DNA from: Clostridia bacterium
Lineage (GTDB): Bacteria > Bacillota > Clostridia > Oscillospirales > CAG-272
Assembly (NCBI GenBank): GCA_017472305.1
Contig: JAFUQP010000038.1
Location: 1-34,635, forward strand
DNA: 34,635 bases
Direction: 5' to 3'
Shown: piece by piece, positions 6,181 through 34,171 of the stretch
Numbering within the stretch: the stretch's first letter is position 1
Layout: the number at the start of each line of letters is the position of its first letter
The notes under the pieces: model-generated
Database searches by the model: none
What the model was told of the DNA's origin: nothing
Seen by the model: only the letters and a program-made list of their open reading frames with translations
Translations under genes and position numbers: made by a program

Positions 6181-6505
6181 TAATCCGTAGGTCGGAAAGA
6201 GCCATACACCCACCGTCGAAAATACTCTTACATACGGTAACCGCCACCTCTGCTCCGAACAGGCACCCTCGCGGCACACGCGATAAACCGCTTAATGCTG
6301 CTTGGTTCCCCACCTGACATGGTTCACAGCCTCGCGTTGCGCAAGACCCATTCTTCAACACAGATAATGACGGTGCAGACTACACAAAAGCAATCCTCGG
6401 GTTGGGAATGAACCCCTGCTATAGCGGATTTCAGGTACAAGGCGCCGCTACTGCCCCGACTGGTATGGCTCCGTCCGACACACGGATTGCCGCTAAATTA
6501 CGGCA
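6181..6505 (-). ncRNA. ffs: Signal recognition particle RNA, large bacterial type
   Basis: RNA core of the particle that targets membrane proteins with Ffh. On the minus strand I see the Alu-domain block GGGGCAGTAGCGGCGCC, then AATCCGCTATAGCAGG, closely like Bacillus scRNA. Further on is the helix-8 hallmark: CATGTCAGGT, a GGAA loop, then ACCAAGCAGCATTAAG, and GTGTGCCGCGAGGG. The ends close as a long stem: GGAGCCATAC near the 5' end pairs with GTATGGCTC near the 3' end, and AATCCG with CGGATT outside it. The exact ends are estimates; the 5' end is placed from the promoter. Confidence 0.93.
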
Positions 6506-25801: not shown

Positions 25802-25819
25802 TTGACATTTTTTTCACAA
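25802..25819. promoter_or_regulatory. Rex-like operator upstream of the hydrogenase operon
   Basis: TTGACATTTTTTTCACAA compares with the Rex consensus TTGTGAA-N4-TTCACAA at 11 of 14 fixed positions, with a perfect right half. It lies 6 bp upstream of the -35. Rex senses the NADH/NAD ratio and controls fermentation genes in Clostridia. The assignment is an inference. Confidence 0.4.
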
Positions 25820-25908: not shown

Positions 25909-26406
25909 ATGCTTAAAAAGCTTTCCACTATCCCTTTTACGGATACAGCGGAACAAAAGGCTGAGCTCGATGCGGTTGTCGCTAAATACGCAGGCGACCC
26001 CAGCCGTCTTATGGCTGCAATGCAGGACGCTCAGGGTATTTACGGCTACCTTCCCATCGAGGTGCAGAAGGTAATTGCTGACGGCGTTGGAGTACCGCTC
26101 GAGAAGGTATACGGCGTTGCCACCTTCTACGCTCAGTTCTCTCTTTCGCCCAAGGGCGAAAACCATGTTGCCGTATGTCTCGGCACTGCCTGCTACGTTA
26201 AGGGCTCAGGCGTAATTTATGACAAATTCCAGGAGCTTCTCGGTATCGGCGGCGACGAATGCACCGCTGACAGAAAGTTCTCTCTTACCGCTTCCCGCTG
26301 CATCGGTGCTTGCGGTCTTGCTCCCGTTCTCACCGTTAACGACGACGTTTACGGCAGACTTACCGCAAACGACGTTGAGGGCATTATTGCTAAGTACAAC
26401 AAGTAA
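25909..26406 (+). CDS. hydC: NuoE-like subunit of NAD-linked [FeFe]-hydrogenase
   Basis: A 165-aa thioredoxin-fold protein carrying one [2Fe-2S] cluster, ligated by C90, C95, C131 and C135 (VCLGTACYVKGS and SRCIGACGLAP). The N-terminal helical part (AMQDAQGIYGYLPIEVQKVI, VYGVATFYAQF) is typical of NuoE/HydC. It forms the small subunit of trimeric HydABC, which couples NADH and ferredoxin to H2. AGGAGG lies 8 nt before the ATG at 25909. It heads the operon, separated from hydB and hydA by six regulatory-type genes and a 2Fe-2S protein gene. Confidence 0.93.
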   Translation: MLKKLSTIPFTDTAEQKAELDAVVAKYAGDPSRLMAAMQDAQGIYGYLPIEVQKVIADGVGVPLEKVYGVATFYAQFSLSPKGENHVAVCLGTACYVKGSGVIYDKFQELLGIGGDECTADRKFSLTASRCIGACGLAPVLTVNDDVYGRLTANDVEGIIAKYNK

Positions 26407-26442
26407 TTGTTCCATCGCAAATCTTACCTTTGAGGGATTGCT

Positions 26443-26799
26443 ATGAAAATTTCCGAAATCGTGAAAATGCTCGACGCAAGAGTTCTGTGCTGCGAGGACA
26501 AAACCGACAGGGAGGTCGACTCCGCCTTTGGCTGTGACCTTATGAGCGACGTGCTTGCCTACGTAAACGACCAGGCAATGCTGCTCACGGGACTTGTCAA
26601 TCCGCAGGTTATCCGTACCGCGCTTATGCTTGATATGGTTTGTATCGTTTTCGTTCGCTCCAAGGAGCCGAGCAAGGAGATGATTGAGCTGGCGCGCGAG
26701 AACGGCATCGTTATGATGAGCACAAACAAAACTCTTTACACATCCTGCGGACTTCTCTACTCGGGAGGTCTTATAGGAACCGGCGAGGTGTGCAAATGA
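26443..26799 (+). CDS. Stand-alone DRTGG domain protein
   Basis: A 118-aa cytosolic protein made only of a DRTGG-like domain: FGCDLMSDVLAYV, then LLTGLVNPQVIRTALMLDM, IVFVRSKEPSKEMIELARE and GIVMMSTNKTLYTSCGLL. DRTGG domains occur with CBS domains, phosphotransacetylase and HPr-kinase-related proteins, and are thought to bind a ligand or help regulation. No catalytic residues are evident. The stop overlaps the next start (ATGA), so it is translationally coupled to the ATPase. A second DRTGG gene lies further down the operon. Confidence 0.8.
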   Translation: MKISEIVKMLDARVLCCEDKTDREVDSAFGCDLMSDVLAYVNDQAMLLTGLVNPQVIRTALMLDMVCIVFVRSKEPSKEMIELARENGIVMMSTNKTLYTSCGLLYSGGLIGTGEVCK

Positions 26800-27242
26800 G
26801 TGACAGATTAATTTTTCGTTTCGATGTTGAGGGAGATGATTTCACTTCTGCAGGTCAGGCATCGGTGCAGGTAAAAAAGAACCTTCGCCAGCTTGGAATT
26901 GACTCCGAGACCATAAGAAGAGTGTCTATCGCAATGTACGAGGGAGAAATTAACATGGTCATTCACGCCGGCGGCGGCGTTGCGGAGGTCGCAGTTTGCG
27001 AGGATTACATAGAGATTGTTCTCGAAGACACGGGTCCCGGCATAAAGGATATCGAGCAGGCTATGCAGGCAGGATATTCTACCGCCTCTGACACCGTTCG
27101 CTCTCTCGGCTTCGGTGCCGGTATGGGACTGCCTAATATGAAAAAGAACAGCGACTCTATGACTATAGACTCTACGCCCGGGGTCGGCACCCGTATCGTT
27201 ATGAAAATAATGTACGGAGGTAAGGCAAATGAAGGCGTATGA
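26796..27242 (+). CDS. GHKL ATPase, RsbW/anti-sigma-like
   Basis: A 148-aa protein consisting of one histidine-kinase-like ATPase domain. The N box is SIAMYEGEINMVIHA (E50, N53), the G1 box EDTGPGI and the G2 box GFGAGMGLPNM. No dimerisation or phosphoacceptor His domain is present, so it resembles SpoIIAB/RsbW-type serine kinases and anti-sigma factors more than a histidine kinase. The ATG at 26796 overlaps the DRTGG stop, and its own end overlaps the HydS-like gene by 14 bp. The partner protein is unknown. Confidence 0.85.
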   Translation: MSDRLIFRFDVEGDDFTSAGQASVQVKKNLRQLGIDSETIRRVSIAMYEGEINMVIHAGGGVAEVAVCEDYIEIVLEDTGPGIKDIEQAMQAGYSTASDTVRSLGFGAGMGLPNMKKNSDSMTIDSTPGVGTRIVMKIMYGGKANEGV

Positions 27243-28494
27243 GCACTCGGTTCTTCTTGACACGCAGAAATGCACCGGTTGTACAACCTGCCTCAGGCAC
27301 TGTCCGACAGAGGCGATAAGAATTAAGAACGGGCATGCCGTTATTGATTCAGAGCGTTGCATCGACTGCGGAGCCTGCATCAGATACTGCCCGAGCAAGG
27401 CAAAGAAGGCTGTATGCAGCAAGCTCTCCGATATGGACCGCTTCAAGTACAAAATTGCACTCCCTGCACCTACGCTGTACGGACAGTTTGACAATCTCGA
27501 CGACGTGGACCACGTTCTCTCGGGACTTAAGAAGATAGGCTTCGACGACGTTTACGAGGTATCCAAGGCTGCCGAGCTGGTTTCGGCATACACGAGGCTG
27601 TATTTACAGACCGAGGGTGTCAGAAAGCCCGCGATAAGCTCCGCCTGCCCCGTAATTCTGCGTCTTGTCGCACTGCGCTTCCCTTCCCTCTCGGAGCATA
27701 TAATTCACATGCTACCGCCTATGGAGATTGCCGCAAAGCACGCAAGAGAAAGAGCGCTGAAGGCTCACCCCGAGCTTTCGCCCGAGGATATCGGCGTATG
27801 CTTCATTTCTCCCTGCCCTGCAAAGGCAAGCTACGTCAAGGGCGGATTTGCGGGATATAAGAGCGCTATCGACGAGGTAGTATCTATCAGCGACATTTAT
27901 TTCCTGCTTATAAGCAAGATGAAAAAGGACGAGGAGCCTGAAATGCTCTCGGAGTCCGGACGCATCGGCATAGGCTGGGCGCGCTCAGGCGGCGAGGCTA
28001 CCGCAATATTCAACGAGGACTATCTCGCGGCTGACGGAATCGAAAACGTTATCCACGTGCTTGACCAAGTTGAAAACGGTAACATTCCCCCTCTTGAGTT
28101 TATCGAGCTTAACGCCTGCACGGGCGGCTGCGTTGGCGGTGTTCTCACTATGCAGAACCCATTCATCGCAAAGGCAATGCTTCAGTCGCTCAGAAGATAC
28201 CTGCCCGTATCGCAGAACTCGCTCCCAAAAGATACAGCGTACATTCCCGCAGAGTACCTCTTTGAGGACCTGCCGGAGTACAACCCCATATCCCGTCTTG
28301 GCAATACGATTGCCGAGTCTATGAGGATTATGGCGGATATTCATAATTTGAAGGAAACGCTCCCCGGCATTGACTGCGGCTCCTGCGGCGCACCTACCTG
28401 CAGAGCCTTCGCTGAGGACGTTGTAAAAAATCTTGCTTCAATCGACGACTGTCATCTTCTGAAGGTGTGGCCGAAGAAGGAAGCAAAGGATTAA
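27229..28494 (+). CDS. hydS: HydS-like putative sensory [FeFe]-hydrogenase
   Basis: A 421-aa iron-sulfur protein. Two 4Fe-4S sites occupy the N-terminus (C15/18/21/25 and C44/47/50/54). The hydrogenase domain keeps all four H-cluster cysteines: C140 (SSACP), C196 (SPCPAK), C297 and C301 (NACTGGCVGG). A139 replaces the proton-transfer cysteine of TSCCP, a change known in HydS-type sensory enzymes. The C-terminus carries a CGSCGAPTC Fe-S domain (C383, C386, C391, C408) and no PAS domain, like the group often called D. It probably senses H2 or redox state with little turnover. GGAGG precedes the ATG. Confidence 0.85.
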   Translation: MKAYEHSVLLDTQKCTGCTTCLRHCPTEAIRIKNGHAVIDSERCIDCGACIRYCPSKAKKAVCSKLSDMDRFKYKIALPAPTLYGQFDNLDDVDHVLSGLKKIGFDDVYEVSKAAELVSAYTRLYLQTEGVRKPAISSACPVILRLVALRFPSLSEHIIHMLPPMEIAAKHARERALKAHPELSPEDIGVCFISPCPAKASYVKGGFAGYKSAIDEVVSISDIYFLLISKMKKDEEPEMLSESGRIGIGWARSGGEATAIFNEDYLAADGIENVIHVLDQVENGNIPPLEFIELNACTGGCVGGVLTMQNPFIAKAMLQSLRRYLPVSQNSLPKDTAYIPAEYLFEDLPEYNPISRLGNTIAESMRIMADIHNLKETLPGIDCGSCGAPTCRAFAEDVVKNLASIDDCHLLKVWPKKEAKD

Positions 28495-28541
28495 GCTTCC
28501 GGCAAGGGGCAGCTGCTCCGTTTGCCGAGAAAGGCATAAAT

Positions 28542-28871
28542 ATGACGGTAGAACGCTTCGCAAACGAGTTTGGCTTTGATATTCTCTGTATGCCCGCTCC
28601 GGAAAAGGAGATTTCGGGTGCATATATCGGAGACCTGCTCAGCTGGGTAATGGGAAAGGCAGAGCAGTCAAACGTTTGGCTAACCATTATGTCTAATATT
28701 AATACGGTAGCAGTCGCAACTCTCGCGGATACGTCCTGTATTCTTCTGTGCGAGGGTGTGAGGGCAGACGGAGAGCTTCTCCGTACCGCGAGCGAAAAGG
28801 GAGTTAACATACTCTCTACCGACTTAACCTCGTTTGAGGCTGCCGTTAAGATAAAGGATGCGGTAAGGTGA
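28542..28871 (+). CDS. Second stand-alone DRTGG-like protein
   Basis: A 109-aa protein: FGFDILCMPAPEKEISGAYI, GDLLSWVMGKAEQSNVWL, then LADTSCILLCEGVRADGELL and GVNILSTDLTSFEAAVKI. The fold pattern matches the first DRTGG protein of the operon, with low identity. No enzymatic motif is seen. The start is ATG at 28542, with AGAAAGG upstream; the 47-bp gap after hydS is the widest in this part. The stop overlaps the GTG start of the PHP gene, so the two are coupled. Confidence 0.75.
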   Translation: MTVERFANEFGFDILCMPAPEKEISGAYIGDLLSWVMGKAEQSNVWLTIMSNINTVAVATLADTSCILLCEGVRADGELLRTASEKGVNILSTDLTSFEAAVKIKDAVR

Positions 28872-29599
28872 ACCGCTACTATTACGACCTGCATATTCAT
28901 TCCTGCCTTTCTCCCTGCGGTGACGAGGATAACACTCCAAACAACATAGCCGGTATGGCTTCGCTGTGCGGACTGAATATCGTTGCGCTCACCGACCACA
29001 ACACAACAAAAAATTGCCCCGCATTCTTTACCGCGGCAAGGCGGCACGGCATCATTCCCATTGCGGGAATGGAGCTAACCACCAGCGAGGATATCCACGT
29101 TGTCTGCCTTTTTGAGGAGCTTGACGATGCTATGGCATTCGGCGAGTTCGTTCAGACAAAGAGGGTTCTTATTAAGAACAGGGTTGAAATTTTCGGAGAG
29201 CAGACGGTGCTCGACGGAGAGGATAACCCGATAGGCACAGAGGAATATTTTCTGCCCAACGCAACCGAAATTTCCATAGAGGACGTCTCGGAGCACGTCA
29301 GAAAATATCGCGGTATCTGCTACCCTGCCCACATAGACCGTGATTCAAACGGCATCATTGCAATACTCGGTACTATCCCCGAGAACAGCGATTTCAGACT
29401 CTTTGAGCTTCGTGACAGCGAGCACAGGGCCGAGTATGCCGAAAAATACGGACTGTCGGAGAGTCAGTTTATAATATCTTCCGACGCGCACTATCTTACA
29501 AATATGCGGGACAAGGAGAATTACTTTGACATCGAGGACGAGCCTTACAGCTCAGCACACGTCAGAAAAGAGCTCTTTAAAATATTAAGGAGTATATAG
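28868..29599 (+). CDS. PHP-domain phosphoesterase
   Basis: A 243-aa metal-dependent PHP-family protein, cytosolic. Metal ligands are visible: H9 and H11 (DLHIHSCLSPCG), D43-H44 (ALTDHNT), E in AGMELTTSEDIHVV with its His, H in CYPAHIDRDSNG, and D/H in SSDAHYL. The set looks complete, so it is probably an active phosphatase or phosphodiesterase. In this operon it could remove phosphate placed by one of the GHKL proteins, which is inference. It starts with GTG at 28868, overlapping the previous stop (GTGA). Confidence 0.85.
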   Translation: MNRYYYDLHIHSCLSPCGDEDNTPNNIAGMASLCGLNIVALTDHNTTKNCPAFFTAARRHGIIPIAGMELTTSEDIHVVCLFEELDDAMAFGEFVQTKRVLIKNRVEIFGEQTVLDGEDNPIGTEEYFLPNATEISIEDVSEHVRKYRGICYPAHIDRDSNGIIAILGTIPENSDFRLFELRDSEHRAEYAEKYGLSESQFIISSDAHYLTNMRDKENYFDIEDEPYSSAHVRKELFKILRSI

Positions 29600-29602
29600 C
29601 TT

Positions 29603-30160
29603 ATGAAGGAATTATCCCTTAACATACTCGACATTACCGAAAACTCCCTGAAGGCGGGGGCAACGCTCGTTACCGTGCTTATCGAGGAGTCGGAGAGCCT
29701 TATGAAAATCAGCATCGAGGACGACGGCGTCGGTATGACGGGGGAGGTGCTTTCTTCGGTGGAAAACCCCTTCTACACCACGAGAAAAACGAGGAAGGTT
29801 GGAATGGGTATTCCTCTGTTCCGCTTTGCGGCGGAGCAGACGGGCGGAGATTTGAAAATCAGCTCGCGCCATATTGACGAGTTCCCCGACGCTCACGGCA
29901 CGCTCGTGTGTGCCACCTTTAATAAAGCACATATCGATTTTACGCCGCTCGGCGACGTAATTTCAACCGTAGTAACCCTGATACAGGGACACCCCGACAG
30001 AGATTTTCTGTTCATACACAAATCCGAGAGGGGCACGGTTACACTGGACACGCGAGAGCTGCGTTCAGTGCTCGAGGAGATTCCGCTCGACGCCTTCGAG
30101 GTTCTCTCGTGGATAAGAGAAAATCTTACCGAGCAATATGAGAGTATTAAGCAAATATAA
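29603..30160 (+). CDS. GHKL ATPase domain protein, atypical kinase
   Basis: A 185-aa protein. The N-terminal part is a compact ATPase domain: N box LDITENSLKAGA, G1 box EDDGVGM, F-box-like NPFYTTRKTRKVG and G2 box GMGIPLF. The C-terminal 75 residues (DVISTVVTLIQGHPDRDFLF onward) have no recognised family. There is no DHp/HisKA domain and no membrane segment. It may be a protein kinase or a conformational switch that works with HydS. AAGGAG lies before the ATG, only 3 nt past the PHP gene. Confidence 0.83.
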   Translation: MKELSLNILDITENSLKAGATLVTVLIEESESLMKISIEDDGVGMTGEVLSSVENPFYTTRKTRKVGMGIPLFRFAAEQTGGDLKISSRHIDEFPDAHGTLVCATFNKAHIDFTPLGDVISTVVTLIQGHPDRDFLFIHKSERGTVTLDTRELRSVLEEIPLDAFEVLSWIRENLTEQYESIKQI

Positions 30161-30190
30161 AAAATATAAATTCCAGAAAGGAAGCAAAAA

Positions 30191-30559
30191 ATGAAATCTT
30201 TGGCTGAACTTAAAGCAATCAAAGACAGAATGAGAGACAAAATCGTTATTCGCGAGGGCGCAAACGACACCCGCGTAGTTGTCGGTATGGCAACCTGCGG
30301 TATCGCAGCAGGCGCGCGTCCCGTTCTCAACGCTTTCGTTGAGGCGGTTAATAACGAGGGTCTCTATGAGAAGGTTACCGTTTCGCAGACCGGCTGCATC
30401 GGCTTCTGCCAGCTTGAGCCCATCGTTGAGGTGTTCGAGCCCGGTAAGGAAAAGGTTACCTACATCAAAATGACTCCCGAGAAGGTTTCGGAGGTCGTAG
30501 AAAAACATTTAAAGGGTGGCAAGGTTGTTACGGAGTACACCGTAGCAAGCGCCAACTAA
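30191..30559 (+). CDS. Thioredoxin-like [2Fe-2S] ferredoxin, hydrogenase-associated
   Basis: A 122-aa protein with a thioredoxin-like 2Fe-2S fold. Cysteines occur in VGMATCGIAAGARP and QTGCIGFCQLEP, and the C-terminus IKMTPEKVSEVVEKHLKGG matches the first domain of HydB. Proteins of this kind (HndB- or HydE-like) accompany NAD- or NADP-linked hydrogenases and probably carry electrons or stabilise the complex. AAAGGAAG precedes the ATG. hydB follows after 13 bp. Confidence 0.88.
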   Translation: MKSLAELKAIKDRMRDKIVIREGANDTRVVVGMATCGIAAGARPVLNAFVEAVNNEGLYEKVTVSQTGCIGFCQLEPIVEVFEPGKEKVTYIKMTPEKVSEVVEKHLKGGKVVTEYTVASAN

Positions 30560-30572
30560 CGGAGGTTAAGTT

Positions 30573-32399
30573 ATGATTCGTGCTCACGTGCTTATTTGTG
30601 GCGGTACAGGCTGTACCTCCTCGGGCTCTAAAACCCTTCAGGAGGCATTCAACAAGAATATCGCCGACTTCGGACTCGAGGAGGAGGTAAAGCTCGTTCA
30701 GACCGGTTGCTTCGGTCTTTGCGCCCTCGGTCCCATCGTTATCGTTTATCCCGACGGCACCTTCTACAGCCGCGTAACTGCTGACGACGTTAAGGAAATC
30801 GTTGAGGAGCATCTTCTCAAGGGTAGAATTGTTGAGCGTCTTGTTTACAGAGATACCGGCACAGACGAGATTGTTGAGAAGGCAAGAGAGAACGTTTCTC
30901 TTAACGACACCGCCTTCTACAAGTCCCAGAAGCGTATCGTTCTCCGTAACTGCGGTGTTATCGACCCCGATAACATTGAAGAGTACATTGCTATGGACGG
31001 TTACGCAGCGCTCGGTAAGGCTCTTACCGAGATGACTCCCGAGGACGTTATCAAGGTTGTTTCGGATTCCGGTCTTCGCGGAAGAGGAGGCGGAGGCTTC
31101 CCCACCGGCCGTAAGTGGGCTCTTTGCGCTCCCAACAAGGCAGACCAGAAGTACGTAGTTTGTAACGCGGACGAGGGCGACCCCGGAGCGTTCATGGACC
31201 GTTCCATACTCGAGGGTGACCCCCACGCAGTTATTGAGGCTATGGCTATCTGCGGTTACGCAGTTGGCGCAACCAAGGGTTACGTTTACGTAAGAGCTGA
31301 GTATCCTATCGCCGTTAACCGTCTCCAGAAGGCTATTGACGACGCTAAGGAATACGGATTGCTCGGCAAGAACATCTTCGACTCCGGTTTCGACTTCGAC
31401 CTTGAAATCAGACTTGGTGCAGGCGCGTTCGTTTGCGGCGAGGAGACTGCGCTTATGACCTCTATCGAGGGTAACCGCGGCGAGCCCAGACCCCGTCCTC
31501 CCTATCCTGCAGTTAAGGGTCTTTACAACTCTCCCACAGTTGAGAACAACGTTGAGACCTTCGCAAATATTCCTCAGATTATACTTAAGGGCGTTGAGTG
31601 GTTCACTTCTATGGGTACCGAGAGATCCAAGGGTACTAAGGTATTCGCACTCGGCGGTAAGATTGAGCATACCGGTCTGGTTGAGATTCCTATGGGTACT
31701 ACTCTCCGTGAGATTATCTACGATATCGGCGGCGGTATTCCCAACGGCAAAACCTTCAAGGCAGCTCAGACGGGCGGTCCTTCCGGCGGTTGTATCCCTG
31801 CAAGCCTTATCGACACCGAGGTTGACTACGATAACCTCGTTTCCATCGGCTGTATGATGGGTTCGGGCGGTCTTATCGTTATGGACGAGGACTCCTGTAT
31901 GGTTGATATGGCGAAGTTCTTCCTTGAGTTCACGGTTGATGAGTCCTGCGGTAAGTGTACTCCCTGCCGTGTCGGTACAAGACGTCTTCTCGAGCTTCTC
32001 GACAAGATTACCGACGGTAAGGGTACTCTCGAGGATATTGACAGACTTGAGAACCTTTGCAACTACATCAAGCAGAATTCTCTTTGCGGTCTCGGTCAGA
32101 CTGCTCCCAACCCCGTGCTTGCAACTCTTAAGTTCTTCCGCGACGAGTATATCGCTCACGTTGTAGATAAGAAGTGCCCTGCAGGCGTATGTAAGAACCT
32201 TCTTTCCTTCACTATCGACCCCGATAAGTGTATCGGCTGCGGCAAGTGCGCTAAGAACTGCCCTGTTGACACTATCGTTAAGACAGATTACGTTGCTCCC
32301 GGACACAAGCTCGCTTCCTATAAGATTGAGCAGGCTAAGTGCATTAAGTGCGGCGCTTGTATGAGTGGCTGTAAGTTCGGCGCAATCACCAAGAAGTAA
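30573..32399 (+). CDS. hydB: NuoF-like flavin subunit of NAD-linked [FeFe]-hydrogenase
   Basis: A 608-aa electron-bifurcation subunit. Domains in order: a thioredoxin-like 2Fe-2S domain (C9, C14, C46, C50), the FMN/NADH-binding NuoF core with GLRGRGGGGFPTGRKW (167-182) and NADEGDPGAF, an SLBB segment, a 4Fe-4S site (SCGKCTPCR, C459/462/465, with C505), and a C-terminal two-cluster ferredoxin domain (C553/556/559/563 and C590/593/596/600). It passes electrons between NADH, ferredoxin and HydA. GGAGG precedes the ATG. The highly biased codons suggest strong expression. Confidence 0.96.
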   Translation: MIRAHVLICGGTGCTSSGSKTLQEAFNKNIADFGLEEEVKLVQTGCFGLCALGPIVIVYPDGTFYSRVTADDVKEIVEEHLLKGRIVERLVYRDTGTDEIVEKARENVSLNDTAFYKSQKRIVLRNCGVIDPDNIEEYIAMDGYAALGKALTEMTPEDVIKVVSDSGLRGRGGGGFPTGRKWALCAPNKADQKYVVCNADEGDPGAFMDRSILEGDPHAVIEAMAICGYAVGATKGYVYVRAEYPIAVNRLQKAIDDAKEYGLLGKNIFDSGFDFDLEIRLGAGAFVCGEETALMTSIEGNRGEPRPRPPYPAVKGLYNSPTVENNVETFANIPQIILKGVEWFTSMGTERSKGTKVFALGGKIEHTGLVEIPMGTTLREIIYDIGGGIPNGKTFKAAQTGGPSGGCIPASLIDTEVDYDNLVSIGCMMGSGGLIVMDEDSCMVDMAKFFLEFTVDESCGKCTPCRVGTRRLLELLDKITDGKGTLEDIDRLENLCNYIKQNSLCGLGQTAPNPVLATLKFFRDEYIAHVVDKKCPAGVCKNLLSFTIDPDKCIGCGKCAKNCPVDTIVKTDYVAPGHKLASYKIEQAKCIKCGACMSGCKFGAITKK

Positions 32400-32419
32400 T
32401 GAAAGGAGCATAAACTGAT

Positions 32420-34171
32420 ATGGAAATGTTAAACGTTACAGTTAACGGCATTGCAGTAAGCGTGCCGAAGGGCTCCACCATCCTTGAGGCTGCCCGCGCA
32501 GCAGGCGTGGAGATTCCCACCCTCTGCTATATGAAAGAAAAAAACGAGATCGGCGCGTGCCGTATCTGCGTTGTTGAGGCTACCGGTGCAAGAGGTCTTG
32601 TAACCGCTTGTGTTTACCCCGTAACCGAGGGTATGGCTATCAGCACTAACACCGCTAAGGTTAGAGAGGCAAGAAAGACTACTCTTGAGCTTATCCTCTC
32701 CACTCACGACAAAAACTGCCTCTCCTGCTCCCGTTCCACCAACTGCGAGCTTCAGAAGCTTTGCCTTGAGTACGGTGTTGACTCCGGTGCTTTCGACGGC
32801 TTCAAGCCCACCTATGAGCTTGATTACTCTACTCCTCACCTCGTAAGAGACAACAACAAGTGTATCCTCTGCCGTAGATGCGTTGCGGTTTGCGAGGAGC
32901 AGCACGTTGCTGTTATCGGCGCTAACAACAGAGGTATCGACACCTGCATCGGACAGGCATTCGAACTTCCCCTCGGCGAGACTCCCTGTATCTCCTGCGG
33001 TCAGTGTACTGCAGTATGTCCTACCGGTGCGCTCGTTGAAAAGGACGATACCGACAAGGTATGGGCAGCTCTCGCTGATCCCACAAAGCACGTTGTAGTT
33101 CAGACTGCTCCTTCTATCAGAGCAACTCTCGGCGAATGCTTCGATATGCCTATCGGAACTAACGTTGAGGGCAAGATGGTTGCAGCTCTTCGCAGACTGG
33201 GATTTGAGAAGGTATTCGACACAAATACCGCGGCAGACTTCACTATTGTTGAGGAAGCTACCGAGCTTCTTGAGCGTGTAAAGAACGGCGGTACTCTTCC
33301 TATGATTACCTCCTGCTCTCCCGGTTGGGTTAAGTTCTGCGAGCTTTACTACCCCGATATGATTAATCACCTCTCCTCCTGCAAGTCTCCTCAGCAGATG
33401 GGCGGCGCGCTTATTAAGTCCTATTGGGCTGATAAGATGGGCTATGACCCCAAGGACGTATTCGTAGTTTCTATTATGCCTTGTACTGCTAAGAAGTTTG
33501 AGGTAGGCAGAGAGGATATGTGCGGCGCAGGCGAGGGTATCGTTGACGTTGACGTAGCTCTCACTACCCGTGAGCTTGCAAGAATGATTGGCAGAGCCGG
33601 CATTAAGTTCACTGCTCTTCCCGACGAGGAGTTCGACTCCGCACTCGGTATTGACACAGGTGCTGCCGTTATCTTCGGTGCAACCGGCGGCGTTATGGAG
33701 GCTGCTCTCCGTACCGCTAACGACGTTCTTACCGGCAAGGATAACAAGGAGCTTGAGTTCCACGAGGTACGCGGTACTGAGGGTCTCAAGGAGGCTACCT
33801 ACAATATCGCAGGTATGGAAATCAAGGTTTGCGTTGCTTCCGGCGCGAAGAATGCAAAGGCTGTTATGGATAAGATTGCGAAGGGCGAGGCAGACTGGAC
33901 CTTCGTTGAGATTATGGGATGTCCCGGCGGCTGTGTAAACGGCGGCGGTCAGCCTATCCAGCCTCAGCACGTAAGAGATACCGTAGACCTTAAGGCTGTA
34001 AGAGCTAAGGCTCTCTATGACCAGGACAAGGCTATGGCGATGAGAAAGTCGCACCAGAACCCCATTATCAAGGAAGTTTACGAAAACTACTTCAAGGGCG
34101 GTTACGGTTGCCACGCTGCTCATCACGCTCTCCACACCTCCTACGTTGGACGTAAGAAGTATAATATCTAA
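32420..34171 (+). CDS. hydA: [FeFe]-hydrogenase catalytic subunit
   Basis: A 583-aa cytosolic enzyme that makes or uses H2. The N-terminal 2Fe-2S domain has C36, C47, C50 and C64; the His-Cys3 cluster H96, C100, C103 and C109; two 4Fe-4S clusters follow (C148-C158 and C190-C200). The H-cluster domain has TSCSPGW (297-303), MPCTAKKFE (C355) and EIMGCPGGCVNGGGQ (C501, C505). Position 300, a Cys ligand in the C. pasteurianum enzyme CpI, is Ser here, while position 321 is Cys (LSSCKSPQQM). The pair recurs, to my knowledge, in trimeric NAD-linked enzymes. AGGAG precedes the ATG. It is the last gene of the operon. Confidence 0.96.
   Translation: MEMLNVTVNGIAVSVPKGSTILEAARAAGVEIPTLCYMKEKNEIGACRICVVEATGARGLVTACVYPVTEGMAISTNTAKVREARKTTLELILSTHDKNCLSCSRSTNCELQKLCLEYGVDSGAFDGFKPTYELDYSTPHLVRDNNKCILCRRCVAVCEEQHVAVIGANNRGIDTCIGQAFELPLGETPCISCGQCTAVCPTGALVEKDDTDKVWAALADPTKHVVVQTAPSIRATLGECFDMPIGTNVEGKMVAALRRLGFEKVFDTNTAADFTIVEEATELLERVKNGGTLPMITSCSPGWVKFCELYYPDMINHLSSCKSPQQMGGALIKSYWADKMGYDPKDVFVVSIMPCTAKKFEVGREDMCGAGEGIVDVDVALTTRELARMIGRAGIKFTALPDEEFDSALGIDTGAAVIFGATGGVMEAALRTANDVLTGKDNKELEFHEVRGTEGLKEATYNIAGMEIKVCVASGAKNAKAVMDKIAKGEADWTFVEIMGCPGGCVNGGGQPIQPQHVRDTVDLKAVRAKALYDQDKAMAMRKSHQNPIIKEVYENYFKGGYGCHAAHHALHTSYVGRKKYNI

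Follow-up and report, generated by a model that had tools for sequence, protein, structure and literature searches.

A group D-like [FeFe]-hydrogenase in a co-inherited six-gene cassette: a possible redox-signalling unit beside HydABC and Rnf in Clostridia

Introduction

A sensory role for group D [FeFe]-hydrogenases and a flanking histidine-kinase-like ATPase are already in print in passages of two papers (PMC8163306, PMC3608648), the second of which describes a group D hydrogenase with an upstream histidine kinase in Thermoanaerobacter. Passages of a 2026 study state for the only characterised group D hydrogenase that its C-terminal cluster is not reduced by H2, describe its partners as unknown and call the identification of interaction partners critical for the signalling mechanism (PMC13104023). 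Here we describe a HydS-like group D hydrogenase gene that lies with five putative signalling genes inside a hydrogenase operon on a 34,635-nucleotide stretch of DNA from a Clostridia bacterium (assembly GCA_017472305.1, contig JAFUQP010000038.1), the whole of which is called the window below. The genes are abbreviated as C (hydC), d (DRTGG-1), h (HATPase-1), S (HydS-like), D (DRTGG-2), P (PHP), H (HATPase-2), f (a small thioredoxin-like [2Fe-2S]-type subunit), B (hydB) and A (hydA); "=" between letters marks a fusion in one frame, and L and G numbers denote loci and genomes, respectively.

Several described systems resemble parts of this arrangement. The Acetobacterium woodii hydABCDE cluster encodes a histidine-kinase-type ATPase, HydE, and a small protein without a predicted cofactor, HydD; unlike the window, it has no HydS, DRTGG or PHP protein in the passage that describes it (PMC3315566). 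HydE and HydD are like H and f, an equivalence drawn from the descriptions and not from sequence, and HydD is listed as a hydrogenase subunit in a passage of a further paper (PMC6288185). HATPase-1 shares sequence similarity and an N-box with the partner-switching proteins SpoIIAB and RsbW; in contrast to those systems, the window block has neither a STAS partner nor a sigma factor, and DRTGG proteins stand where the antagonist might be. The group C modules, whose PAS-bearing enzymes are also named HydS (Ruminococcus albus, Thermotoga maritima, hfsABCD), likewise have a hydrogenase as putative sensor.

Sensors have also been described beside rnf genes. Passages of the respective papers report an ATP-binding protein that resembles sensor kinases and is encoded immediately before rnfC in Clostridium aceticum (PMC7911925), a group C1 hydrogenase and a sensory histidine kinase by rnf, proposed as Rnf regulators, in Vallitalea guaymasensis (PMC6163223), and adjacent hyd and rnf clusters in Tepidanaerobacter (PMC4374699); these passages contain no tie to a group D hydrogenase, DRTGG or PHP. 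The main text of the papers on TamHydS of Thermoanaerobacter mathranii (PMC8163306, PMC3608648) does not contain the words DRTGG or PHP, and their passages on this enzyme, unlike the present cassette, include no second ATPase, fusion, CBS-bearing HATPase-1 or rnf link. In the passages available from the open-licence PubMed Central (PMC) literature, the DRTGG/PHP cassette, its fusions and its CBS form were not found; one paper has a PHP gene in a table of Rex sites, apart from hydrogenases.

Results

The six genes are co-inherited with hydABC in many Clostridia

Analysis of the window's open reading frames with Pfam and NCBIfam identified ten plus-strand genes at 25909..34171 in the order C-d-h-S-D-P-H-f-B-A (Table 1). 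All genes named by the original prediction are present at the places it gave them, and its list of six genes between hydC and hydB-hydA was right as far as it went; it had missed f. The overlapping start and stop codons that it had noticed are there as well (d/h 4 bp, h/S 14 bp, D/P 4 bp). P and H are spaced by 3 bp and S and D by 47 bp, counted from the ATG of DRTGG-2; a GTG start at 28467 would make DRTGG-2 overlap S. Group A6 HydA, NuoF-like HydB and NuoE-like HydC share the one operon, and the window HydABC is predicted to be an enzyme of the electron-bifurcating group A type. Among the ten genes, Pfam searches found no STAS antagonist, sigma factor or DNA-binding gene, no HisKA match in either HATPase and no receiver domain, and a two-component system was dropped as a candidate on the last two grounds.

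The nearest relatives of the operon were taken as the best 80 of at least 591 stretches encoding relatives of S in a collection of named genomes, nearly all of them metagenome bins by title. The ten-gene order was complete in 50, cut by a contig end in 26 and different in four, namely one locus with hydC between P and H (L084), one cut on the right with an extra weak S-like match upstream (L043) and two with one gene in two pieces (L076, L077). In contrast, each of four tested genes that precede the window operon was found in one to three of the 52 loci whose contigs extend 6 kb or more beyond HydS on the upstream side, and the order is therefore not due to chance. Stop/start overlaps of four bases or one base were identified at d-h (33/79), h-S (4/81), S-D (19/78), D-P (55/75) and P-H (41/76), and at none of the measured C-d (74), H-f (72), f-B (57) and B-A (50) pairs.

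To cover the phylum, 299 genomes were drawn evenly from it, with genera that are partly non-independent events. S (E ≤1e-50) was detected in 123 genomes and 78 of 210 genera, h (E ≤1e-15) in 132 genomes, H in 131 and group A6 HydA (E ≤1e-150) in 217. Three of the h matches were weak (G052, G070 and G320, E about 5e-16) and were left out of the co-occurrence counts. S and h were present together in 122 genomes, S without h in one, where S lies at a contig end, h without S in seven and neither in 169. The corresponding numbers were 118, 5, 13 and 163 for S and H, and 114, 9, 103 and 73 for S and HydA.

Neighbourhoods were examined in 80 phylum regions that contain S; they represent 77 genera, of which three contributed two copies each. 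Matches of at least 50 bits to family profiles made from the window's relatives were counted where they lay within 8 kb of S on the same strand in regions with enough contig. This analysis revealed h near S in 75/78 regions, with a median gap of 4 bp and a largest gap of 419 bp, followed by d (67/78), D (71/77), P (63/75) and H (62/73), and then by C (54/71), f (53/73), B (53/70) and A (49/69). The three regions lacking h are second copies in one family with the layout S-D-f-C-B-A (L155, L188, L198). Thus d, h, S, D, P and H are a co-inherited unit with hydABC in many Clostridia and related bacteria; the original prediction had made its model depend on such co-conservation and had noted related clusters in other Clostridia, and the complete order in the nearest relatives and the phylum neighbourhoods agree in bearing it out.

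Natural fusions join neighbouring genes

Single reading frames joining two neighbours were found for five pairs: d=h at six loci (L172, L185, L200, L205, L207, L215), h=S at one (L213), S=D at two (L161, L170), P=H at three (L152, L204, L208) and H=f at one (L164). The h=S protein has 635 aa and Pfam matches to HATPase_c, Fe_hyd_lg_C and the C-terminal FeS domain. On a HydS tree (FastTree, 156 rows, local supports, unrooted, S matches of 350 bits or less left out), the minimum number of changes was two for d=h and one each for h=S, S=D, P=H and H=f; FastTree gave a long-branch warning, which included L213 with L207, and these counts are rough. Taken together, the fusions appear to connect the putative input to an enzyme subunit at every step except D-P.

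In the same tree, HydS proteins from five records labelled Coriobacteriales, Atopobiaceae or actinobacterium that carry the operon (L036, L039, L040, L044, L049; 69-70% identity) fall on one side of a branch, and a single whole-operon transfer out of Clostridia is possible, as is mis-binning.

The cassette and the hydrogenase genes form two blocks

The commonest string in the phylum regions was d-h-S-D-P-C-H-f-B-A, exact in 27/80, and elsewhere in the phylum hydC most often lies between PHP and HATPase-2. Because the commonest layout outside the window's lineage is d-h-S-D-P followed by C-H-f-B-A, the hydC-first order of the window is probably derived. The layouts with hydC first, with hydC between P and H and with H-f-C required three changes on the HydS tree, and the 80 rows labelled hydC-first required two, this label covering L021-L100 except L084 and including contigs that start after hydC (L044, L061).

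The two blocks can also be found apart. One genome (G199) has C-H-f-B-A alone, with d-h-S-D-P elsewhere and adjoining rnf, and two others (G303, G258) show C-H-f-B-A with none of the remaining genes alongside, on contigs that both end just before hydC. At four loci (L232, L233, L236, L238) d-h-D-P-H occurs without S and without C, f, B and A in the fetched stretch, and these loci led us to abandon an exclusive assignment of HATPase-2 to the hydrogenase block. Given its usual place in the second block, the P=H fusions and these d-h-D-P-H clusters, HATPase-2 looks like a bridge between the two blocks. The original prediction had treated the six genes as one block; outside the window's lineage, HATPase-2 is usually found in the second block, and the same fusions and clusters connect it with the first block as well. 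All four genera examined in one family (4/4) have [h S] and [d D P H] on separate contigs, with hydC, hydB and hydA beside neither part; the genes are kept in the genome though apart, in what may be a single event.

Reduced and enlarged forms were observed as well. D alone is kept ahead of C-H-f-B-A in G159 (L243) and G044 (L241). In G073 (L242), d, D, C, H, f, B and A are present, h is missing and S and PHP are in pieces, with rnf following; with h, S and P being lost, this appears to be a decaying module. HydB frames of 1011-1053 aa, compared with the usual 600, were found at L161, L170, L213 and L243, perhaps owing to an extra domain on the NADH-binding subunit.

HydS-less forms carry CBS domains and lie beside rnf

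Strong h matches without S were found in seven genomes (G048, G072, G147, G175, G182, G317, G330). CBS domains were identified on h at eight loci, as two stretches in seven and one in L221. Six of the eight have no S beside them (L231, L232, L233, L236, L237, L238); here the CBS domains are N-terminal, and the loci come from four genomes (two each from G147 and G330, one each from G175 and G315). P is absent while d, h, D and H stay at L229, L234 and L235.

rnfC and rnfD were present within 12/80 of the phylum S regions and in 6/12 further fetched regions (L229, L230, L231, L233, L234, L237), and the genes run d, CBS-h, f, rnfC at both L231 and L237. Copies linked to rnf, and others that lack neighbouring hyd genes, led us to reject the view that the six genes are tied to hydABC alone. 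That the parts belong together, as originally predicted, is supported by their co-inheritance and by the fusions between neighbours; an exclusive bond with hydABC is not, given the rnf-linked and HydS-less forms.

No relatives of d, h, D, P or H were found in the fetched stretch of eight loci called group C-like by length and about 30% identity (L101-L108), and a module shared with group C HydS was dropped as a candidate (0/8). Small thioredoxin-like ferredoxin genes lie upstream in 7/8 of these loci and a second hydrogenase-like gene downstream in 6/8.

Conserved residues of the cassette proteins

Residues were counted in alignments from which phylum members below 90 bits (below 300 for HydS) were left out. 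In the HydS-like protein of the window (421 aa), two 4Fe-4S motifs at the N-terminus are followed by an H domain and, at the C-terminus, a Cx2Cx4Cx16C motif; Pfam gave no match to PAS. The H-cluster cysteines 140 and 196 are present in 159/159 rows and 297 and 301 in 158 (one gap), and the C-terminal cluster cysteines C383, C386, C391 and C408 in 157/159, the other two being gaps. Position 139 is Cys in 0/159 rows, a loss of the proton-path Cys C299 in CpI numbering, and position 194, the place of CpI M353, is S in 109, T in 48 and A in 2 of 159; the CpI numbers were assigned to these columns by us. The protein fits the group D (M2e) description in the passages of PMC8163306, a placement made by motifs and description.

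HATPase-1 has a GHKL domain with an E-xxx-N box, in which E49 and N53 are present in 167/167 rows. By sequence, the nearest solved structure is that of the anti-sigma F factor SpoIIAB (1til/1l0o, profile match with E about 2e-9); because it scored 59.8 bits against the TIGR01925 cut-off of 135, we call it SpoIIAB-like and do not file it as SpoIIAB. D10, N14 and D40 of HATPase-2 are present in 148/148 rows, and we read D10 and N14 as a putative N-box with Asp replacing Glu. In sequence, HATPase-2 most resembles the ATPase domains of histidine kinases and matches MutL-type ATPases more weakly. Its C-terminal part of about 65-75 residues has no Pfam match; an AlphaFold2 model (mean predicted local distance difference test score 90.1) has a C-terminal alpha/beta segment at residues about 119-183.

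DRTGG-1 is homologous to DRTGG-2 over its length (hhalign 98.5%), and both match sequences in the Protein Data Bank only weakly (E 0.016 or worse). S35 is present in 154/154 and T49 in 152/154 aligned members of DRTGG-1, and S34 and T48 in 112/112 of DRTGG-2 (34 phylum rows and 78 others); the two pairs fall in matching hhalign columns. These residues are candidates for phosphorylation, and the conserved Thr may instead be structural. In the PHP protein, H9, H11, D43, H44, E69, H77, H155, D206 and H208 are invariant where the residue is present (145-147/147). Cys17 in an HxHxxxSPC motif near the metal site is likewise invariant (145/147 rows, two gaps), and one of the usual metal-binding Asp positions may be occupied by this SPC motif. 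Weak family matches of the PHP protein, below cut-off, were to nucleoside-bisphosphate phosphatase, RNase RNM, TrlF and CehA/McbA, and a 5'-3' exoribonuclease is one of the four solved structures that it matched. Sequence comparison identified f as a cousin of the thioredoxin-like domains in HydB and HydC. It has three of the usual four [2Fe-2S] cysteines, with C36, C69 and C73 in 134/134 rows and position 31 being V, I or M and never Cys, and it may be an adaptor instead of an electron carrier.

A Rex-like site upstream of hydC

A weak Rex-like site lies upstream of the window hydC (Table 1). Scanning with strings that we take to be the Rex consensus revealed sites of at least 11/14 in 34/73 hydC upstream regions (window included) compared with 6.3 expected from mononucleotide shuffles of these AT-rich promoters, and the window's genome has a match to the Rex N-terminal domain PF06971. 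The site is suggestive only.

Table 1. Features of the window, with family matches and remarks
Feature	Position	Strand	Match or remark
Large bacterial signal recognition particle RNA	6202-6468	-	RF01854, 177 bits
Rex-like site, weak	25802..25819	+	upstream of hydC; 11/14 positions; overlaps possible -35 box
hydC (C), NuoE-like thioredoxin-type [2Fe-2S] subunit of bifurcating hydrogenase (predicted)	25909..26406	+	PF01257 E 1.9e-47, query started from upstream GTG 25870
DRTGG-1 (d)	26443..26799	+	PF07085 E 1.6e-9
HATPase-1 (h), SpoIIAB/RsbW-like	26796..27242	+	NCBIfam spIIAB E 2.6e-16, under curated cut-off
HydS-like group D [FeFe]-hydrogenase (S)	27229..28494	+	PF02906 E 5.4e-27, PF04060 E 1.5e-13
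DRTGG-2 (D)	28542..28871	+	PF07085 E 1.5e-6, partial length
PHP-family phosphoesterase (P), GTG start	28868..29599	+	PF02811 E 2.2e-10, above cut-off
HATPase-2 (H), GHKL domain and C-terminal part	29603..30160	+	PF02518 E 6e-10
f, thioredoxin-like [2Fe-2S]-type subunit	30191..30559	+	PF01257 E 1.9e-5
hydB (B), NuoF-like, FMN/NADH subunit	30573..32399	+	PF01512, PF10589
hydA (A), NADH-dependent [FeFe]-hydrogenase group A6	32420..34171	+	NF040763 865 bits, cut-off 765

Discussion

The reading that we tentatively prefer, at somewhat less than an even chance, is that the six genes encode a cytoplasmic redox-signalling cassette that gates HydABC and Rnf post-translationally. Its starting points are the observed co-inheritance, gene order and fusions, the intact ATP- and metal-binding motifs, the CBS-bearing HATPase-1 of several HydS-less cassettes and the rnf neighbourhood; from these we infer the signalling itself, the direction of the chain, phosphorylation of the DRTGG proteins and the enzyme rather than a promoter as target. 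The cassette would report H2 or reducing pressure to the enzymes that exchange electrons among ferredoxin, NADH and H2. HydS, and CBS domains where present, would act as input on the SpoIIAB-like ATPase HATPase-1, which together with DRTGG-1 would form the switch, and DRTGG-2 and the PHP enzyme would form the return arm. HATPase-2 would pass the state via f to the NADH-binding subunit, HydB or, beside rnf, RnfC, and the output would mainly be post-translational gating of the electron-bifurcating enzyme. We favour such gating because of the H=f fusion, because f is a cousin of the HydB and HydC thioredoxin-like domains and because transcription may already be under Rex in the window's lineage. 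The enzyme is the likely target, as judged from the H=f fusion and from the place of f next to HydB or RnfC.

Several observations weigh against this proposal. The proteins of the window have no known activity, and every fusion type except d=h is a single inferred event, for which an assembly error is possible. Of the 217 genomes that encode group A6 HydA, 91 lack S, h and H altogether, and the enzyme therefore functions without the cassette. The second copies at L155, L188 and L198 lack d, h, P and H while S and D stay with the enzyme genes, and S therefore need not always have h beside it. The pattern of CBS domains is not a simple exchange either: L162 (two CBS stretches) and L221 (one) have both a CBS-bearing h and S, which led us to reject a strict replacement of HydS by CBS and indicates that two inputs can be stacked, and G315 holds both kinds of locus, with S elsewhere in the genome. 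Further HydS-less genomes show no CBS, with G048, G182 and G317 keeping d-h-D-H without S or P and G072 keeping only d-h. The neighbours of the [h S] pair in one family are a sensor kinase and an OmpR-type regulator, both confirmed by Pfam in L218 and L203, and at L186 a CheW gene and an [FeFe]-hydrogenase with a methyl-accepting chemotaxis protein (MCP) signalling domain; such neighbours suggest transcription or chemotaxis as outputs. At L195 of the same family, a putative hydrogenase frame of similar size stands at the place of the MCP-type hydrogenase of L186. Finally, A. woodii HydE, which we equate with HATPase-2, is stated in a passage of PMC3315566 not to be part of the active enzyme.

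The OmpR-type neighbours bear on a reading that we consider unlikely and yet take seriously, in which a partner switch controls transcription, with HATPase-1 as its anti-sigma factor or kinase, a sigma factor or regulator encoded elsewhere as the target, and HydS setting the state of HATPase-1. The closeness of HATPase-1 to SpoIIAB among solved structures and its universal E-xxx-N box would fit this, as would literature passages in which the R. albus group C HydS appears to regulate HydA2 (PMC11837493) and an AraC-type regulator flanks the hydS gene of T. mathranii (PMC8163306). The ten window genes, however, include no STAS antagonist, sigma factor or DNA-binding gene, Rex-like sites precede many hydC genes in a lineage with a Rex-type gene in the window's genome, and the fusion of the second GHKL ATPase to f (L164) points at the enzyme. 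Marginally less probable still is a role in assembly or repair of HydABC and Rnf, with chaperone-like GHKL ATPases and the HydS-like protein as a scaffold. Tight translational coupling fits complex assembly, HATPase-2 is weakly similar to MutL-type as well as histidine-kinase ATPases, and A. woodii HydE was considered by its authors, in the passage concerned, as maybe for assembly or signalling (PMC3315566). Set against this are the many A6 HydA genomes that lack S, h and H, the H-cluster cysteines retained by HydS, which would be needless in a scaffold, the hydrogenase activity of the T. mathranii group D enzyme reported in a passage of PMC8163306, and the CBS domains on h, which suggest ligand sensing.

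The least probable of the alternatives, which we regard as improbable, is that the PHP protein makes or destroys a small nucleotide that DRTGG and CBS domains bind and the two ATPases read. The nucleoside-bisphosphate phosphatase and RNase RNM matches and the exoribonuclease structure are in line with it, and a passage of PMC11172384 describes CBS-DRTGG pyrophosphatases controlled by adenine nucleotides and diadenosine polyphosphates. The window block nevertheless contains no nucleotide synthetase, the similarity of the DRTGG proteins to solved structures is weak, and P is missing from the three loci in which d, h, D and H stay.

For HydS signalling, the comparison yields an order of candidate partners. 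HATPase-1 would come first because it is fused to HydS in one genome and lies near it in 75/78 regions; DRTGG-2 would be second because it is fused to HydS at two loci, and DRTGG-1, PHP and HATPase-2 would follow. A wider claim, more doubtful than the gating proposal itself, is that the genes represent an undescribed class of cytoplasmic cassette, in which a SpoIIAB-like ATPase, DRTGG proteins replacing STAS antagonists, a PHP protein and a second ATPase would combine inputs that can be exchanged or stacked (an H2-binding hydrogenase, CBS domains) with HydABC and Rnf as outputs and would act on electron bifurcation directly and post-translationally, as a brake or clutch. In our view, control of H2 production and energy conservation in fermenters is at present mostly regarded as transcriptional. 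Many of the records that carry the cassette come from gut and rumen, and if HydABC and Rnf are gated by it, H2 production and energy conservation in fermenters would be under its regulation.

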